DNA of 64,000 nt from Planctomycetota bacterium (GTDB taxonomy: Bacteria; Planctomycetota; Phycisphaerae; Phycisphaerales; SM1A02): positions 62,001-126,000 of the forward strand of contig RFON01000003.1 of the NCBI GenBank assembly GCA_009926625.1, written 5' to 3'. Shown here piece after piece: positions 96 to 51,292 of the stretch. Below the pieces are notes generated by a model, which was not told where the DNA came from, did no database searches, and saw only the letters and a list, made by a program, of their open reading frames with translations. A program made the translations under genes and the position numbers. The first letter of the stretch is position 1. The number at the start of each line of letters is the position of its first letter.

Positions 96-101
96 AGGCT
101 A
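96..101 (-). promoter_or_regulatory. -10-like box TAGCCT, 7 nt before start 88
   Basis: Read on the minus strand, TAGCCT is followed by 7 nt and then ATG. A -10 element here would put the transcription start on or next to the A of ATG. No convincing -35 was seen. Confidence 0.4.
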
Positions 102-127: not shown

Positions 128-133
128 TACGCT
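128..133 (+). promoter_or_regulatory. -10-like box TACGCT, 12 nt before nnrE start
   Basis: If used, this box would start transcription about 5 nt before the ATG at 146 and would exclude the alternative ATG at 119, which lies upstream of the box. It sits back to back with the minus-strand box at 96-101. Confidence 0.3.
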
Positions 134-7907: not shown

Positions 7908-10070
7908 TCACTCCTTCACGAACTGCAGGTCATCGATCACGAATCGGCCGGTGGTGCTGCCCGCAGATCCGCCGACTTCCATCCGCACCGAGGCGATCTG
8001 CGACAGGTCGATCAGCGGGTTCACGGACTTGAAGTCGCGCAAGCGGAGCTGCACGGTGCGCAGTTCATTCTGCCAGCCTGTGCCCGTGCCACTGCCCGTG
8101 CGTTGGTACGGTCGATTGATGGCCTCGCCGTATGCGCTGCTGGACACGCGCGACTCGTTGCCCAGCGAATCCTTCAAGACCCAAGTGAACGATGCGCCGC
8201 CATTCAGCGTGACCGTGTTGGGGTGACGCGTTCCCTGGCCGACGCGCGCCTGGACGAAGGTCCATGACGAGAGATCACGCAGGGCTGGGAGCAGATCCCA
8301 GGTCATGCCTGCCGAGACATTCCAGTCCCACGCAACCATGCGCTGGGTGTCGCTGGATGTGGCGCGGATCGATCCGTTGTGCGGGTTGCTGGTGCTCCAT
8401 GTGTAGGTGTTGTCCGTGTCCCGAGCAATGGCTTCGGAGATGTTGGTGACAGTCGATGCCACCGCCCCGCCGCTGCTGGATGTACCCAGACCAGTCTGCG
8501 TCTGGAAGTTGTCGACGGTGCGCACATTGGCAGACGCGGCGGGCACGACTTCCTTCACGATCGTGAACGCTGCTGACACGCCTGGTGGACGCAGCGATGA
8601 CGACGGTCGCCAGAGGAACTCGCCCAGCGCGGTCTCGGACTCGAGGTGATACTTCAGCGCAGCAAGGATGAACGCCTTCGCCACCGCCTGCGCACCCGCG
8701 TTGTTGATGGCCGTGCCCGATGGTCCCTGGAAGTCGTTCGTACCGCAGCAGTTGAAGTCATTGTGATCGGCACCGTGCACATACACCGTGTTTCGGAAGC
8801 CCGTGCAGCGTTCGGCAAGATCGAAGGACCATGCGACGGTGTTGTTGGGCACGCCACTCACATCCCCATCGGCGGCGCCCCACAGGAGCATGAAGTTGGC
8901 AGCATGCGGGTTCGCGGAACTTGCGCCAAGGAAATCCGTCGGCGCAATCGAGCACAGGAACTTGATGTTGGCAAGCCCGTACCCGGTGGGCGTGTACGAG
9001 TTGTCGAAGATGCGGTCGTACGCGCGCGCGATCCCCTCGCCGCCGCGGCTGTGGCCGATCCAACCGATGCGCGACACATCGATCCGCCCGTTGATGGCTC
9101 CCCCCGCAACGGTGGCCTGCTGCGCGATGATCGCACTGGTGTGCTGCAGCGTTGTCGTGGATGCTGTTTCGATGCCGGGCACCGTGTTGTTCTGATGGCT
9201 GATGACGATGAAGCCCCAGCTTGCCAGGTGCGTTCCCAGGTAGTCGTACCAACTGTATTGATGCCCGTTGCCGTGGGAGATCACGACGAGTGGACGCTGC
9301 CCAAGCAACGCGATGCTTGTCGGATACCAGAGGCGGGCTGTTGTGAATCCTGCCGTTGCGCCGCTCGCGGTGTAGGACGAAAGCGACGTGACCAGGAGTG
9401 GTCCGGTGGCAGTCGGATCTCGTGCGATCCACAGTCCAGCCTCGTTTCCACCACCGTCGATCAAATCACCCGCGCCAAGCCGCCCGTCGCGATTCACATC
9501 CACCACCAGGTCGTAGCCACGACCGACTGCTAGATTGCCGTCACCCGACAAGGTCGTCCCACCAGTCAGTTCGAACACATTGGCGGCGAGCGTCGCACCA
9601 AACTGGATCGTCTGCGGAGTGCCACGAACATCCTGCAGCGAATCGTTGGCGGCCCACTCGGCGGCAGAGCGATTGGCCACAACCCACACATCGGCCGTGG
9701 CATCGGCAGCGACCGGGGTCAGCGCGGGATCGATCCCGACGCGCACGGTGCTGCCTGCAGTGAATGTCCGAACAAACGACACGAACGGTGCCACCTCAAT
9801 CGCTTGGCATGTCAACTTGACTTCGGTTGGCGGTCCCACGGGGCATGACGCCCCCCAAGACGAGACCACAATCGCGAGATCATTGCCGTCCACGGCCCCA
9901 TCGCCGTTCACATCACCTGCGCCAGACTGCCCCCAAGCAACGAGCACTTCAGAAAGGTCAAAGGCGTCGACCGCACCGTCGTTGTTCAGGTCTGCAGCGC
10001 ACTGGCCGTAGGCACTCGCGGAAATCAGGAGCGCGCCCAGGCACAGGGGAAGGTGGCACTGCTTGTCCAT
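7908..10070 (-). CDS. Secreted alpha/beta hydrolase with N-terminal dockerin-like repeats
   Basis: Exported serine hydrolase, 720 residues. After a signal peptide (ending near SAYGQ) come two EF-hand-like calcium repeats of the dockerin type, DLNNDGAVDAFDLSEVL and DVNGDGAVDGNDLAIVV, each followed by WG. A third related Ca-loop-like stretch (DVNRDGRLGAGDLI) lies near residue 200. The hydrolase core has the nucleophile elbow GHSRGG near residue 340, a probable acid in LWGAADGD and a probable histidine in HGADHNDF; this resembles the PET-hydrolase/chlorophyllase-like group. About 230 C-terminal residues resemble a carbohydrate-binding beta-sandwich (ending in RFVIDDLQFVKE). Substrate unknown: an ester or polysaccharide-linked ester is likely. 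ATG 10070 is preferred over TTG 10073. Confidence 0.75.
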   Translation of the reverse strand: MDKQCHLPLCLGALLISASAYGQCAADLNNDGAVDAFDLSEVLVAWGQSGAGDVNGDGAVDGNDLAIVVSSWGASCPVGPPTEVKLTCQAIEVAPFVSFVRTFTAGSTVRVGIDPALTPVAADATADVWVVANRSAAEWAANDSLQDVRGTPQTIQFGATLAANVFELTGGTTLSGDGNLAVGRGYDLVVDVNRDGRLGAGDLIDGGGNEAGLWIARDPTATGPLLVTSLSSYTASGATAGFTTARLWYPTSIALLGQRPLVVISHGNGHQYSWYDYLGTHLASWGFIVISHQNNTVPGIETASTTTLQHTSAIIAQQATVAGGAINGRIDVSRIGWIGHSRGGEGIARAYDRIFDNSYTPTGYGLANIKFLCSIAPTDFLGASSANPHAANFMLLWGAADGDVSGVPNNTVAWSFDLAERCTGFRNTVYVHGADHNDFNCCGTNDFQGPSGTAINNAGAQAVAKAFILAALKYHLESETALGEFLWRPSSSLRPPGVSAAFTIVKEVVPAASANVRTVDNFQTQTGLGTSSSGGAVASTVTNISEAIARDTDNTYTWSTSNPHNGSIRATSSDTQRMVAWDWNVSAGMTWDLLPALRDLSSWTFVQARVGQGTRHPNTVTLNGGASFTWVLKDSLGNESRVSSSAYGEAINRPYQRTGSGTGTGWQNELRTVQLRLRDFKSVNPLIDLSQIASVRMEVGGSAGSTTGRFVIDDLQFVKE

Positions 10071-10076
10071 CAAATC

Positions 10077-10082
10077 AGGGTA
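10077..10082 (-). promoter_or_regulatory. -10-like box TACCCT, 6 nt before start 10070
   Basis: On the minus strand TACCCT is followed by 6 nt and ATG, with TTGCAC 16 nt upstream as a possible weak -35. No Shine-Dalgarno sequence is present before the start. Confidence 0.4.
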
Positions 10083-10115: not shown

Positions 10116-10121
10116 TAGAAT
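10116..10121 (+). promoter_or_regulatory. -10-like box TAGAAT, 7 nt before start 10129
   Basis: TAGAAT (one mismatch to TATAAT) precedes ATG 10129 by 7 nt in the 58-bp divergent gap shared with the hydrolase promoter. It supports ATG 10129 over the upstream in-frame GTG at 10099. Confidence 0.45.
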
Positions 10122-28635: not shown

Positions 28636-29643
28636 TCAGCTCTCCACCACCCGCAGCGCGATCAGGTCCTGCACATCGACCATGCCAATCGGCCTTCCGC
28701 TGAGGTCCACGATTGGCACTTCGTCGACACGGCGGTCCTGAACGAGACGCACCGCGTCACGAACAACCGCAGCCACCGTGAGGCAGATGGGGCGCGCCGT
28801 CATCACCTTCGCCATGGGGCCATCGAGCCAATCCGCAGCACCCTGATGCACCAGTCGGCGCAGGTCACCATCGGTGAAGATGCCTGACAGTCGTTCGCCA
28901 CCATCCACGAGCAAGATGGCACCCGCGCGCCGATCCTCGCCTGCTTGCGCGAGAGCCTCACGCACCGTGGCGGTGTCTCGCACCACGCGCAGGTTTGCAC
29001 CAACCCGAAAGCGCAGCACATCCGTGATCGGGCGAAGTCCGGCGCCGAGCAGCCCGCCTGGATGGTGACGGTGGAAGTCATCCGCGCGGAAGTCCCGACG
29101 ACGCGCGAGCGCGAGGGCAATGGCATCCCCCGCCGCAACCATGGCGGTGGTGCTGGCCGTCGGGGCCAGGTTCAGAGGGCATGCCTCCACGATGTCACCG
29201 AGAGCAACATGCGCATCGCACAGGCGCGCGAGCGCCGTGGTTTGCCGAGTCGAGATGCCAACGCGCGCCACCCCATCGGCCTTCAAGTGCAGCGCAAGGT
29301 CGACGATCTCGGCGGTTTCACCGCTGTAGGACAGGAGCAGCGCAACATCTCCCTTGCGCAGTCGGCCAAGATCGCCGTGCAGCGCCTCCGCGGGATGGAT
29401 GAAGTGCGATGGCTGACCGAGGCTTGCCAGCGTGGCCGACACCTTCATCCCCACGAGCCCCGACTTGCCCATGCCCGAGACAACCACATGTCCCTCGCAC
29501 CGTTCGAGGAGGTCGAGCGCTGCACACCATCGACTGCCTGCTGGTCCGCGGAGGTCGGTGGCGATCGCGCTGAGCGCCCGCGCCTCTGCCTCGATCACTT
29601 CCGCCATGAAAACTGGGTCCGCGGACACCGTCTGGGACTTCAT
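28636..29643 (-). CDS. kdsD: D-arabinose-5-phosphate isomerase (KpsF/GutQ family)
   Basis: Converts ribulose 5-phosphate to arabinose 5-phosphate, the first step toward Kdo of lipopolysaccharide. The 335-residue product has an N-terminal SIS domain (VVVSGMGKSGLVGMKVSATLAS; SHFIHPAEALHGDLG; LLLSYSGETAEI; CPLNLAPTASTTAMVAAGDA; FHRHHPGGLLG) and two C-terminal CBS repeats (about 210-335; LVDGGERLSGIFTDGDLRR). This is the standard KdsD architecture. Start ATG 29643 has a TAGCCT box 7 nt upstream. Presence of a Kdo gene supports an LPS-bearing outer membrane. Confidence 0.9.
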   Translation of the reverse strand: MKSQTVSADPVFMAEVIEAEARALSAIATDLRGPAGSRWCAALDLLERCEGHVVVSGMGKSGLVGMKVSATLASLGQPSHFIHPAEALHGDLGRLRKGDVALLLSYSGETAEIVDLALHLKADGVARVGISTRQTTALARLCDAHVALGDIVEACPLNLAPTASTTAMVAAGDAIALALARRRDFRADDFHRHHPGGLLGAGLRPITDVLRFRVGANLRVVRDTATVREALAQAGEDRRAGAILLVDGGERLSGIFTDGDLRRLVHQGAADWLDGPMAKVMTARPICLTVAAVVRDAVRLVQDRRVDEVPIVDLSGRPIGMVDVQDLIALRVVES

Positions 29644-29650
29644 GAGCTGG

Positions 29651-29656
29651 AGGCTA
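29651..29656 (-). promoter_or_regulatory. -10-like box TAGCCT, 7 nt before kdsD start
   Basis: Minus strand. It lies 5 bp from the oppositely directed TACGCT box of scpA, so the whole divergent control region is about 32 bp. Confidence 0.45.
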
Positions 29657-29661
29657 CTGGA

Positions 29662-29667
29662 TACGCT
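29662..29667 (+). promoter_or_regulatory. -10-like box TACGCT, 8 nt before scpA start
   Basis: No Shine-Dalgarno sequence fits between this box and ATG 29676. Confidence 0.4.
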
Positions 29668-29675
29668 CCCGTCAC

Positions 29676-30548
29676 ATGGCACATCAGGATGATTACGAGG
29701 TGCGGTTGGCGAGTTTCCAAGGCCCGCTCGATCTGCTCCTGTACCTGGTTCGGCGTGCCGAGGTGGACATCGCCGACATCCCGATCGCGCTCATCACGGA
29801 GCAGTACTTCCAACTGCTGCGGCAGATCAACCGCATCGATGTTGAACTGGCTGGTGAGTTTCTGGTGATGGCCGCCACGCTGGTGGAGATCAAGAGCCGC
29901 ACGCTCTCGCCCGCCACGGCGGCGGGCGACGCCGATGGTCGGGATTCGCGCAGCGAGACGATCGATCCGCGTTCGGACCTCGTTCGGCAACTGCTCGCGT
30001 ACCAGCGCTTTCGCACGGCGGCGGGCACGCTCGAGCGCCTGCGCGATGAAAGTGCGCGGCGATTCACCGCGGGATCGCATGGAGGCGAGGATCCCGCAGC
30101 GCCAGAGGACTTCGCGGTCGAGATCGATGACGCGCATGTGCTCGACCTGATTGAGGCGTTCGAGCGCATCATGCAGTCGGTGGATGTGTCGCGCCTCGGC
30201 GACCACCGCGTCGAGTACGACGACACGCCGATCTCGCTGCATCAGGCGGACCTGGTCGATCGACTCGCACGCAGCGAGAACCGACGGCTCGGCATGCGAC
30301 GCATCTTCGAGGGGCGTTCACGCGGCGAGATGATCGGACTGTTCCTGGCGCTCCTCGAACTCGCGCGGCAACAGCAGGTGACCGTTCGTCAGGACGACGG
30401 CGACGACGAGATCGAGATCGAACTGCTGCAGATATCGCCAGAGCCTGAGCCTGCAGGAATCCCCGCGCAGCCGCTGCGGACCCGCGATCCCCAAAGCGAT
30501 ACCCAAAGCGATACTGAGAGCAATCCTGCGAGCGACTCGACGGATTGA
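29676..30548 (+). CDS. scpA: Segregation and condensation protein A
   Basis: Kleisin subunit that links SMC heads in chromosome condensation. The N-terminal signature is clear: YEVRLASFQGPLDLLLYLVRRAEVDIADIPIALITEQY (residues 7-44), followed by GEFLVMAATLVEIKSRTLSP. The middle is variable and charged; the C-terminal winged-helix part has FLALLELARQQQVTVRQ near residue 225. The last 30 residues are Asp/Ser/Thr-rich and come from a short repetitive DNA stretch (AAGCGATAC units near 30494-30512). Length 290, slightly long. No scpB or smc in the window. Confidence 0.9.
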   Translation: MAHQDDYEVRLASFQGPLDLLLYLVRRAEVDIADIPIALITEQYFQLLRQINRIDVELAGEFLVMAATLVEIKSRTLSPATAAGDADGRDSRSETIDPRSDLVRQLLAYQRFRTAAGTLERLRDESARRFTAGSHGGEDPAAPEDFAVEIDDAHVLDLIEAFERIMQSVDVSRLGDHRVEYDDTPISLHQADLVDRLARSENRRLGMRRIFEGRSRGEMIGLFLALLELARQQQVTVRQDDGDDEIEIELLQISPEPEPAGIPAQPLRTRDPQSDTQSDTESNPASDSTD

Positions 30549-32705: not shown

Positions 32706-33845
32706 TCACTTCCAATCGCTCGGCGGCGCACTGGTCGGCATCAGCGCGGACATCATCGCCATCGCGGTGCCGTACGCAGCGGAGCGTCGGAACACGCGGT
32801 CGTTCCAAGTGCCGTCGTCCTCGCGCGTCTGCCACAGCAGCCAGTTGAGTTGCGCGCGGAGTTCGCTGCGGCGCGGTTCGGGCAGCACCTCGACCGCCTG
32901 TGCCGCGTGGTAGTGCGCGAACCAGAAGTAGTACGGCGCGACTCCGTACGGCGGAAGGTGCGTCCCGCCCTTGGCGCGGCGCACTTCGAGGTCGCCCCAG
33001 TGACGAACGAATGCCTCGACGGCTGCTTGCACGCGCGCCTTGTCGCTTCGCCCGGCCAGGAACAGCGCCAGTTCGCCGCTGACCATGCGCCCCACGGCGC
33101 CAGGGATCATCCGCGTCTGCCGACGAGCCTGTTGCTGCGCGGCGTACGCGAAGTTGCCATCGTCCGTGCGGCAGCGCTCAAGCGCCGCGAGCGCGCGCTC
33201 GACGACGGTCGCATCGACCGTGTAGCCCAGGGACCGCGCCTCAAACATCGTCTGCAGACAGGCAGGTGTCATGAACGCACTCGCCGCGCACGGCGTTTCG
33301 GCGCCCGCATCGCGCGCGTAGTTCCATCCACCCACCTCGGGAATCTCGAACTTCTGCAGCGCTGCGAGATACCACTCCGTGGCCGCGCGTACCTCCGGCA
33401 GGAGACCATCGGGCACCGCCTTCGCTCGCTGCAGCGCGAGAAGGAACCGCGCGCCGTAGCACGCGCCCCAGGCGCGCACGTCGTAGCCGCCCTTGTAGGT
33501 GTCGACTTGCAGCAGCGGTTCATCGATCGCACCGCACACAAACGCCGTCGCACGGCGGATCGCCTGCTGGCGGATCGCATCGCTCTCCAGCTCGGGCAGT
33601 CGAAGCAGCGCCTCACCGACGATCGCCGTTCCACCAACGCGGTACGCCACGGGGATGTTGCCGCCGACGCGGTACACCCCCTCGTACGGCCACTCACCGC
33701 CCCCATCGCCCGCTTGCATCTCGACGATCTCCGACGCGGCGGTGCGCAGGGACTCGTCGATCTGTGCTGCGGTCGGCGCCGGGCGAACGAGGAACAGGAT
33801 GGTGACGAGCAGCGTGCCCACGCGCGCACGGTACCTGCGGCACAT
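32706..33845 (-). CDS. Secreted alpha/alpha-toroid protein (terpene-cyclase/prenyltransferase-like fold)
   Basis: Exported 379-residue protein of unknown activity. After a signal peptide (TLLVTILFLVRPAPTAAQ) it consists of helical repeats resembling the toroid found in squalene cyclases and prenyltransferases: IVEMQAGDGGGEWPYEG, WYLAALQKFEIPEVGGWNYA, ALERCRTDDGNFAYA and LLWQTREDDGTWNDRVF are QW-like turns. No DxDD catalytic motif is seen, so it is probably not a terpene cyclase. Start choice: ATG 33845 gives an Arg-containing n-region (MCRRYRAR); the in-frame GTG 33821, with TACCGT 6 nt upstream, is a real alternative. Confidence 0.7.
   Translation of the reverse strand: MCRRYRARVGTLLVTILFLVRPAPTAAQIDESLRTAASEIVEMQAGDGGGEWPYEGVYRVGGNIPVAYRVGGTAIVGEALLRLPELESDAIRQQAIRRATAFVCGAIDEPLLQVDTYKGGYDVRAWGACYGARFLLALQRAKAVPDGLLPEVRAATEWYLAALQKFEIPEVGGWNYARDAGAETPCAASAFMTPACLQTMFEARSLGYTVDATVVERALAALERCRTDDGNFAYAAQQQARRQTRMIPGAVGRMVSGELALFLAGRSDKARVQAAVEAFVRHWGDLEVRRAKGGTHLPPYGVAPYYFWFAHYHAAQAVEVLPEPRRSELRAQLNWLLWQTREDDGTWNDRVFRRSAAYGTAMAMMSALMPTSAPPSDWK
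33828..33833 (-). promoter_or_regulatory. -10-like box TACCGT, 6 nt before alternative GTG 33821
   Basis: Minus strand. It lies inside the coding sequence if ATG 33845 is used, so it matters only if the shorter start is right. Confidence 0.2.
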
Positions 33846-33856
33846 CCCTTCCGAAC

Positions 33857-33862
33857 TACGAT
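33857..33862 (+). promoter_or_regulatory. -10-like box TACGAT, 6 nt before rsmD start
   Basis: TACGAT, 6 nt, ATG 33869. No Shine-Dalgarno sequence. Confidence 0.45.
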
Positions 33863-51269: not shown

Positions 51270-51275
51270 AGCGTA
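51270..51275 (-). promoter_or_regulatory. -10-like box TACGCT, 6 nt before start 51263
   Basis: Minus strand; it lies 11 bp from the opposing TACCAT box at 51287, giving a 38-bp divergent control region. Confidence 0.45.
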
Positions 51276-51286
51276 CCGTGCGGACC

Positions 51287-51292
51287 TACCAT
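51287..51292 (+). promoter_or_regulatory. -10-like box TACCAT, 9 nt before GTG 51302
   Basis: Supports GTG 51302 as the start of the ABC exporter gene; upstream in-frame codons belong to the opposite-strand gene. Confidence 0.35.

Follow-up and report, generated by a model that had tools for sequence, protein, structure and literature searches.

The kdsD-like gene and scpA are read in opposite directions from start codons at 29643 (minus strand) and 29676 (plus strand), which leaves a gap of 32 bp between both genes. This arrangement raises the questions of how two promoters can be placed in such a gap and whether they act as a switch. The window that was analysed is a stretch of 64,000 nucleotides from a 2.58-Mb draft genome in 105 contigs. 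The features of the window are shown in Table 1. The gap very probably contains two independent housekeeping promoters that stand back to back and that would yield transcripts with no leader or with a leader of 1-2 nt. Their polymerases probably exclude each other, which would not by itself form a switch.

Table 1. Genes, -10-like boxes, and spacer in the window.
Feature	Position	Strand	Remarks
kdsD-like gene (KpsF/GutQ family sugar-phosphate isomerase, SIS + CBS domains)	28636..29643	-	ATG 29643; TIGR00393
scpA (segregation and condensation protein A)	29676..30548	+	ATG 29676; PF02616
-10-like box TAGCCT (plus-strand AGGCTA) of kdsD-like gene	29651..29656	-	7 nt before ATG
5-bp spacer CTGGA between boxes	29657..29661	.	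two SRN ('extended -10') triplets possible, one per direction
-10-like box TACGCT of scpA	29662..29667	+	8 nt before ATG
-10-like box TAGCCT, minus gene of pair 88/146	96..101	-	
-10-like box TACGCT, plus gene (YjeF_N family) of pair 88/146	128..133	+	
-10-like box TACCCT, minus gene of pair 10070/10129	10077..10082	-	
-10-like box TAGAAT, plus gene of pair 10070/10129	10116..10121	+	
-10-like box TACCGT, minus gene of pair 33821/33869	33828..33833	-	GTG start 33821
-10-like box TACGAT, plus gene (Cons_hypoth95, methyltransferase-like) of pair 33821/33869	33857..33862	+	ATG 33869
-10-like box TACGCT, minus gene (Exo_endo_phos family) of pair 51263/51302	51270..51275	-	
-10-like box TACCAT, plus gene (ABC transporter) of pair 51263/51302	51287..51292	+	

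The kdsD-like protein matches the TIGR00393 profile with 236.3 bits (cut-off 203.7). Its score against the KdsD equivalog model (219.2) is under the curated cut-off of 505, so the name kdsD is used here at the level of the family. The scpA product matches PF02616 with 123.7 bits (cut-off 24.6) and also matches the ScpA equivalog models below their cut-offs.

The preliminary description had assigned to each gene a separate outward-facing TAnnnT box, with the start codons 32 bp apart and the boxes 5 bp apart, and these coordinates were confirmed. The first T of the box lies 13 bases before the start codon of kdsD and 14 bases before the start codon of scpA. A TANNNT element about 12 bp upstream of the start codon has been described as the mark of leaderless bacterial genes (PMC3160421), and both boxes have this form and position. 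The same element has been reported by experiment to act as the -10 region in Deinococcus (PMC12340547). Inspection of both strands identified no Shine-Dalgarno sequence at working distance of either start. The word GGAGG at 29649-29653 was rejected as the Shine-Dalgarno sequence of scpA because 22 nt separate it from the ATG and part of it lies within the minus box. A scan tuned to TTGACA/TATAAT identified no consensus sigma-70 promoter and no terminator on either strand between 29100 and 30200, and the tRNA and Rfam scans of the whole window gave no match.

Both boxes and the 5-bp distance between them were found in 17/17 loci of the same genus. This count and the other orthologue counts allowed a start to be re-chosen up to 75 nt from its expected position and accepted boxes at 5-13 nt from that start. 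These lenient settings make boxes easier to find, and the counts were made without an altered-pattern control. The gap of these 17 loci is 30 or 32 bp. The loci represent 16 distinct sequences where the T, A, and T of both boxes and the last three bases of the spacer (GGA) are invariant and the leader bases vary. The box of scpA ends 6 nt before the ATG in 13/17 of these loci (8 nt in the window). The boxes can be judged not to be chance words, because both of them and their spacing are kept throughout the genus while the leader bases vary.

A divergent kdsD partner adjoins scpA in 44 of the 50 loci examined, once at a distance of 806 bp. The remaining six scpA loci comprise one that is cut by a contig end and five from one other family. 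The divergence of kdsD and scpA can be regarded as old. Among the loci examined, gaps of 30-32 bp were seen in this genus only. The 27 divergent loci outside the genus have gaps of 39-806 bp; nine of them have both boxes (inter-box distance 14-63 bp, gap 39-91 bp) and 18 lack at least one box. In several loci of other genera and families (e.g. L055, L057, L059, and L065), the divergent pair is kept and the boxes at the leaderless position are absent. Leaderless use seems to be variable within the order. The three named relatives that were found are Planctomycetota MAGs, namely VGXN01000018.1 (Phycisphaerae), VGYQ01000017.1 (Planctomycetota), and SYGP01000035.1 ('Planctomycetia'), and they make Phycisphaerae the likely class of the host.

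The positions of TANNNT elements and Shine-Dalgarno 4-mers were counted in a 764-kb sample of the genome that includes the window. The genes in this sample were called with a home-made hexamer model, so that the called starts are approximate, some of them are wrongly set, and some genes were missed. An earlier sample of 364 kb, which is superseded by this one, gave the same picture. TANNNT elements lie 6-12 nt before the start of 64/214 divergent genes (control-window mean 7.6), which is an enrichment of about 8-fold over control windows, and before 7/3957 internal in-frame ATGs. Among tandem genes, they were found before 11/142 starts with gaps below 20 bp (control-window mean 0.6), 21/74 starts with gaps of 20-60 bp (1.2), and 16/138 starts with gaps above 60 bp (3.0). 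Shine-Dalgarno 4-mers are little enriched before divergent starts (35/214 vs 22 in the control) and strongly enriched before tandem starts with gaps below 20 bp (56/142 vs 13); the counts are 13/74 vs 8 for gaps of 20-60 bp and 32/138 vs 8 for gaps above 60 bp. The translation signals are thus partly split by gene position, with TANNNT before divergent genes and Shine-Dalgarno sequences before close tandem genes. Tandem genes with gaps above 60 bp carry some of both signals and fall outside this simple split. Many of these wide-gap genes are presumably first genes as well. Leaderless expression cannot be extended to all first genes of the genome, because the box was found in 30% of the called divergent genes and in 16 of the 138 wide-gap tandem genes.

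The distance from the box to the start peaks at 6 nt (34/112) and 7 nt (25/112), which is the position expected for transcription that starts at or adjoining the start codon. Upstream of the 112 boxes, a -35 signal could not be clearly made out: the best match to TTGACA was 2.72, compared with 2.79 in the control window and with 2.64 (sd 0.07) after shuffling, and 5-of-6 matches occurred three times compared with once in the control. The extended -10 triplet TGN precedes 12/112 boxes, with no excess over neighbouring positions. The triplet SRN stands directly before 58/112 boxes, compared with a background of 33% and with 79/228 intragenic TANNNT words. The base at +1 that is predicted from the box is C for 46 of the 78 boxes that end at least 7 nt before the start. 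A purine is reported to be preferred at start sites (PMC10268837). Transcription may begin on the start codon itself and not 1-2 nt before it, since the predicted +1 is mostly C and not a purine.

We infer the start sites and the promoter activity at kdsD/scpA from the sequence, its conservation, and the box-to-start statistics. Each TANNNT element would serve as a -10-like element that ends 7-8 nt before the start codon, and each transcript would begin at the start codon or within 1-2 bases of it. The predicted transcription starts of kdsD and scpA would lie about 30-33 bp apart. A leaderless gene that has neither a Shine-Dalgarno sequence nor a consensus -35 element would need about 12-14 bp of intergenic DNA, and with promoters this small a divergent pair could shrink to 24-60 bp and keep both of them. 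The footprint of RNA polymerase is too large for two holoenzymes to fit readily on promoters with predicted starts at a distance of about 30 bp. Steric exclusion between the two promoters is plausible because of the geometry of the gap and the size of this footprint, and one polymerase on the site would probably exclude the other while it is there.

The likely size of this exclusion was estimated by a simulation that contained exclusion only, with no bursts and no feedback, and with guessed rates. With an occupancy of 5 s, exclusion lowered the number of initiations per min from 0.92 to 0.85 when one polymerase loaded per 60 s, and from 5.99 to 4.01 when one loaded per 5 s. With an occupancy of 60 s, this number was 0.33 instead of 0.50 and 0.48 instead of 0.92. 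Short occupancy with ordinary loading would therefore trim both outputs slightly, and minute-long occupancy would cut them by a third to half. The mRNA correlation under exclusion was -0.02 to -0.135. The protein correlation was -0.01 to -0.20, compared with -0.10 to +0.09 in the independent control, where sampling noise is about 0.1. The protein shares stayed within 0.34-0.65 at 95% of the time points, which is near the independent control and slightly wider at high load. A shorter first run under exclusion gave r of -0.15 to -0.01 for mRNA and -0.13 to +0.12 for protein.

Pairs 88/146, 10070/10129, and 51263/51302 had been described as having the same design as kdsD/scpA. These pairs do have a box on both sides in gaps of 57, 58, and 38 bp (the plus start of 51263/51302 is GTG), but their inter-box distances of 26, 33, and 11 bp differ from the 5 bp of kdsD/scpA, so the likeness is a loose one. 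Among loci of the same genus, both boxes were found in 18/18 for 88/146 (inter-box distance 13-58 bp), in 18/18 for 10070/10129 (33 bp in 13/18), and in 17/17 for 51263/51302 (6-22 bp). The orthologues of 51263/51302 (L111-L127) have inter-box values of 6, 11, and 21-22. The kept spacing at kdsD/scpA and at 10070/10129 could mean selection on geometry. We have also identified a fifth compact pair with two boxes in the window, 33821/33869, that was absent from the preliminary description (gap 47 bp, inter-box distance 23 bp). The product of its minus gene has no Pfam match.

The 764-kb sample contains 107 divergent pairs. The gap is at most 60 bp in 27 of them, five of which are called overlaps. 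With the called starts fixed, 14/107 pairs have a box on both sides, compared with 0, 0, 1, and 0 for four permuted patterns. Start re-choice, which favours box-bearing starts and was for that reason controlled with altered patterns, gave 28/107 pairs, compared with 1-9 for 11 altered patterns. The inter-box distances of these 28 pairs range from -5 to 158 bp with single outliers at -53 (likely an artefact) and 550, and no single preferred spacing was seen among them. Among the two-box pairs, kdsD/scpA lies towards the compact end but is not the only one there. Five others in the sample have gaps of 24-33 bp, although three of them have one or more re-chosen starts and in a fourth one start was moved by 12 nt. 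The compact two-box layout is ordinary in this genome.

Among the sampled pairs, the start codons of 2720/2745 (locus L048, contig C14) are 24 bp apart and its boxes TAGTAT and TACTAT overlap almost wholly. This pair is a candidate for a true bidirectional promoter. Four sampled pairs other than kdsD/scpA have overlapping boxes (inter-box distances -5, -2, -2, and -2), three of them with re-chosen starts. They would fit the bidirectional promoters described by the Grainger group if they are leaderless.

The preliminary description interpreted kdsD/scpA and the similar pairs as possible mutually exclusive switches. In such a switch, a polymerase on one box of the shared site would silence the other gene for a meaningfully long time. 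The two separate outward-facing -10-like boxes of this interpretation are retained, but the switch itself is very unlikely. Its strongest points are that the boxes 5 bp apart and the predicted starts about 30 bp apart make simultaneous occupancy improbable, that the inter-box spacing is constant in all 17 loci of the genus, and that an occupancy of 60 s cuts both simulated outputs by a third to half. However, a switch requires a factor that keeps the site in one state beyond the lifetime of the mRNA, and no feedback element or other such factor was evident by eye in the kdsD/scpA gap. Exclusion alone yielded only the weak mRNA correlations and the narrow protein shares given above. The layout is also an ordinary one, and the inter-box spacing varies among the orthologues of 88/146 and 51263/51302 while their boxes are kept. 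Repression of the partner was seen in E. coli when one promoter was strongly activated, as a switch would have it, whereas the basal activity of the five bidirectional promoters tested by Warman et al. (2026) was reported to be too low for competition (PMC12825309). The starts of those E. coli promoters are 10-23 bp apart compared with about 30 bp predicted for kdsD/scpA, so the comparison is an analogy (PMC12825309). Both sides of a divergent M. tuberculosis pair with leaderless starts are reported to be upregulated together (PMC3898074).

The spacer could instead have been selected as a maximally packed twin promoter with two extended -10 elements, where polymerase competition over the exact 5 bp would set the ratio and lower the noise of two housekeeping genes, one for the cell envelope and one for chromosome segregation. 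This explanation is unlikely, though less so than the switch. It is favoured by the exact spacing and the invariant GGA beside variable leader bases, by the divergent kdsD that is kept beside scpA in most loci, and by the reduced noise under interference at acrA/acrR, the one E. coli locus measured (PMC12825309). The triplet before the box in the direction of scpA is GGA; in the direction of kdsD, the window has CAG and most of the genus has CGC. All of them are SRN, and the two triplets have one base pair of the spacer in common. The preference for SRN can account for GGA and could explain part of the invariance of the spacer with no switch. The layout with shared SRN is not a general rule, because the tight orthologues of 51263/51302, examined by eye, do not have SRN on both sides. 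By descent alone, few indels would be expected in 5 bp. Outside the genus, the spacing of the nine two-box loci is wider and variable, and 18 divergent loci lack at least one box, which also argues against a selected 5-bp geometry. The least credible explanation is that the boxes are chance words and that transcripts with leaders come from promoters within the two adjacent genes. TANNNT is a weak motif, as this explanation needs, but three results argue against it: the element is enriched at its position relative to control windows and much more so relative to internal ATGs, permuted patterns seldom place a box on each side when the called starts are fixed, and T, A, and T are invariant across the genus. 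Two independent back-to-back promoters therefore remain the preferred explanation.

The independent promoters suggest that many divergent genes in a lineage of Phycisphaerae also rely on leaderless expression of the -10 type. Such use would aid the annotation of gene starts and would explain divergent genes that are packed 24-60 bp apart. The conserved geometry of kdsD/scpA would offer a clean natural case for polymerase competition on separate adjacent -10 boxes. No description of leaderless promoters in Phycisphaerae was found in the literature searched, which leaves most subscription journals outside it. A hint of leaderless initiation for the phylum is already in print, because leaderless and/or RPS1-type initiation has been suggested for one species of Planctomycetes (PMC5397173). 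Another report deals with types of anti-Shine-Dalgarno sequences (PMC10783764).

The arrangement of kdsD/scpA is of a known kind, closest to leaderless TANNNT promoters and to closely juxtaposed divergent promoters. It is similar to the leaderless promoters described for Actinobacteria and Deinococcus-Thermus, where TANNNT also lies about 12 nt upstream with no clear -35 consensus, SRN often stands just upstream, and there is little Shine-Dalgarno sequence. SRN has been reported at 49% of the TANNNT promoters of M. tuberculosis (PMC3898074). The host here differs in belonging to the Phycisphaerae of Planctomycetota, and the starts are predicted from its sequence. The juxtaposed divergent promoters of M. 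tuberculosis are likewise outward-facing neighbours that are described as common in that transcriptome and include one pair that is leaderless on both sides; they were mapped by RNA-seq, whereas those of kdsD/scpA are deduced from sequence and conservation (PMC3898074). The bidirectional promoters of the Grainger group also drive divergent transcription from one stretch of DNA where the polymerases are expected to exclude each other (PMC10268837, PMC12825309). Their starts are reported to be 7-25 bp apart, most often 18 bp, with overlapping -10 elements (PMC10268837). In contrast, the boxes of kdsD/scpA are separated by 5 bp and its starts are predicted to lie at a distance of about 30 bp, which places this pair outside the bidirectional promoters so defined.
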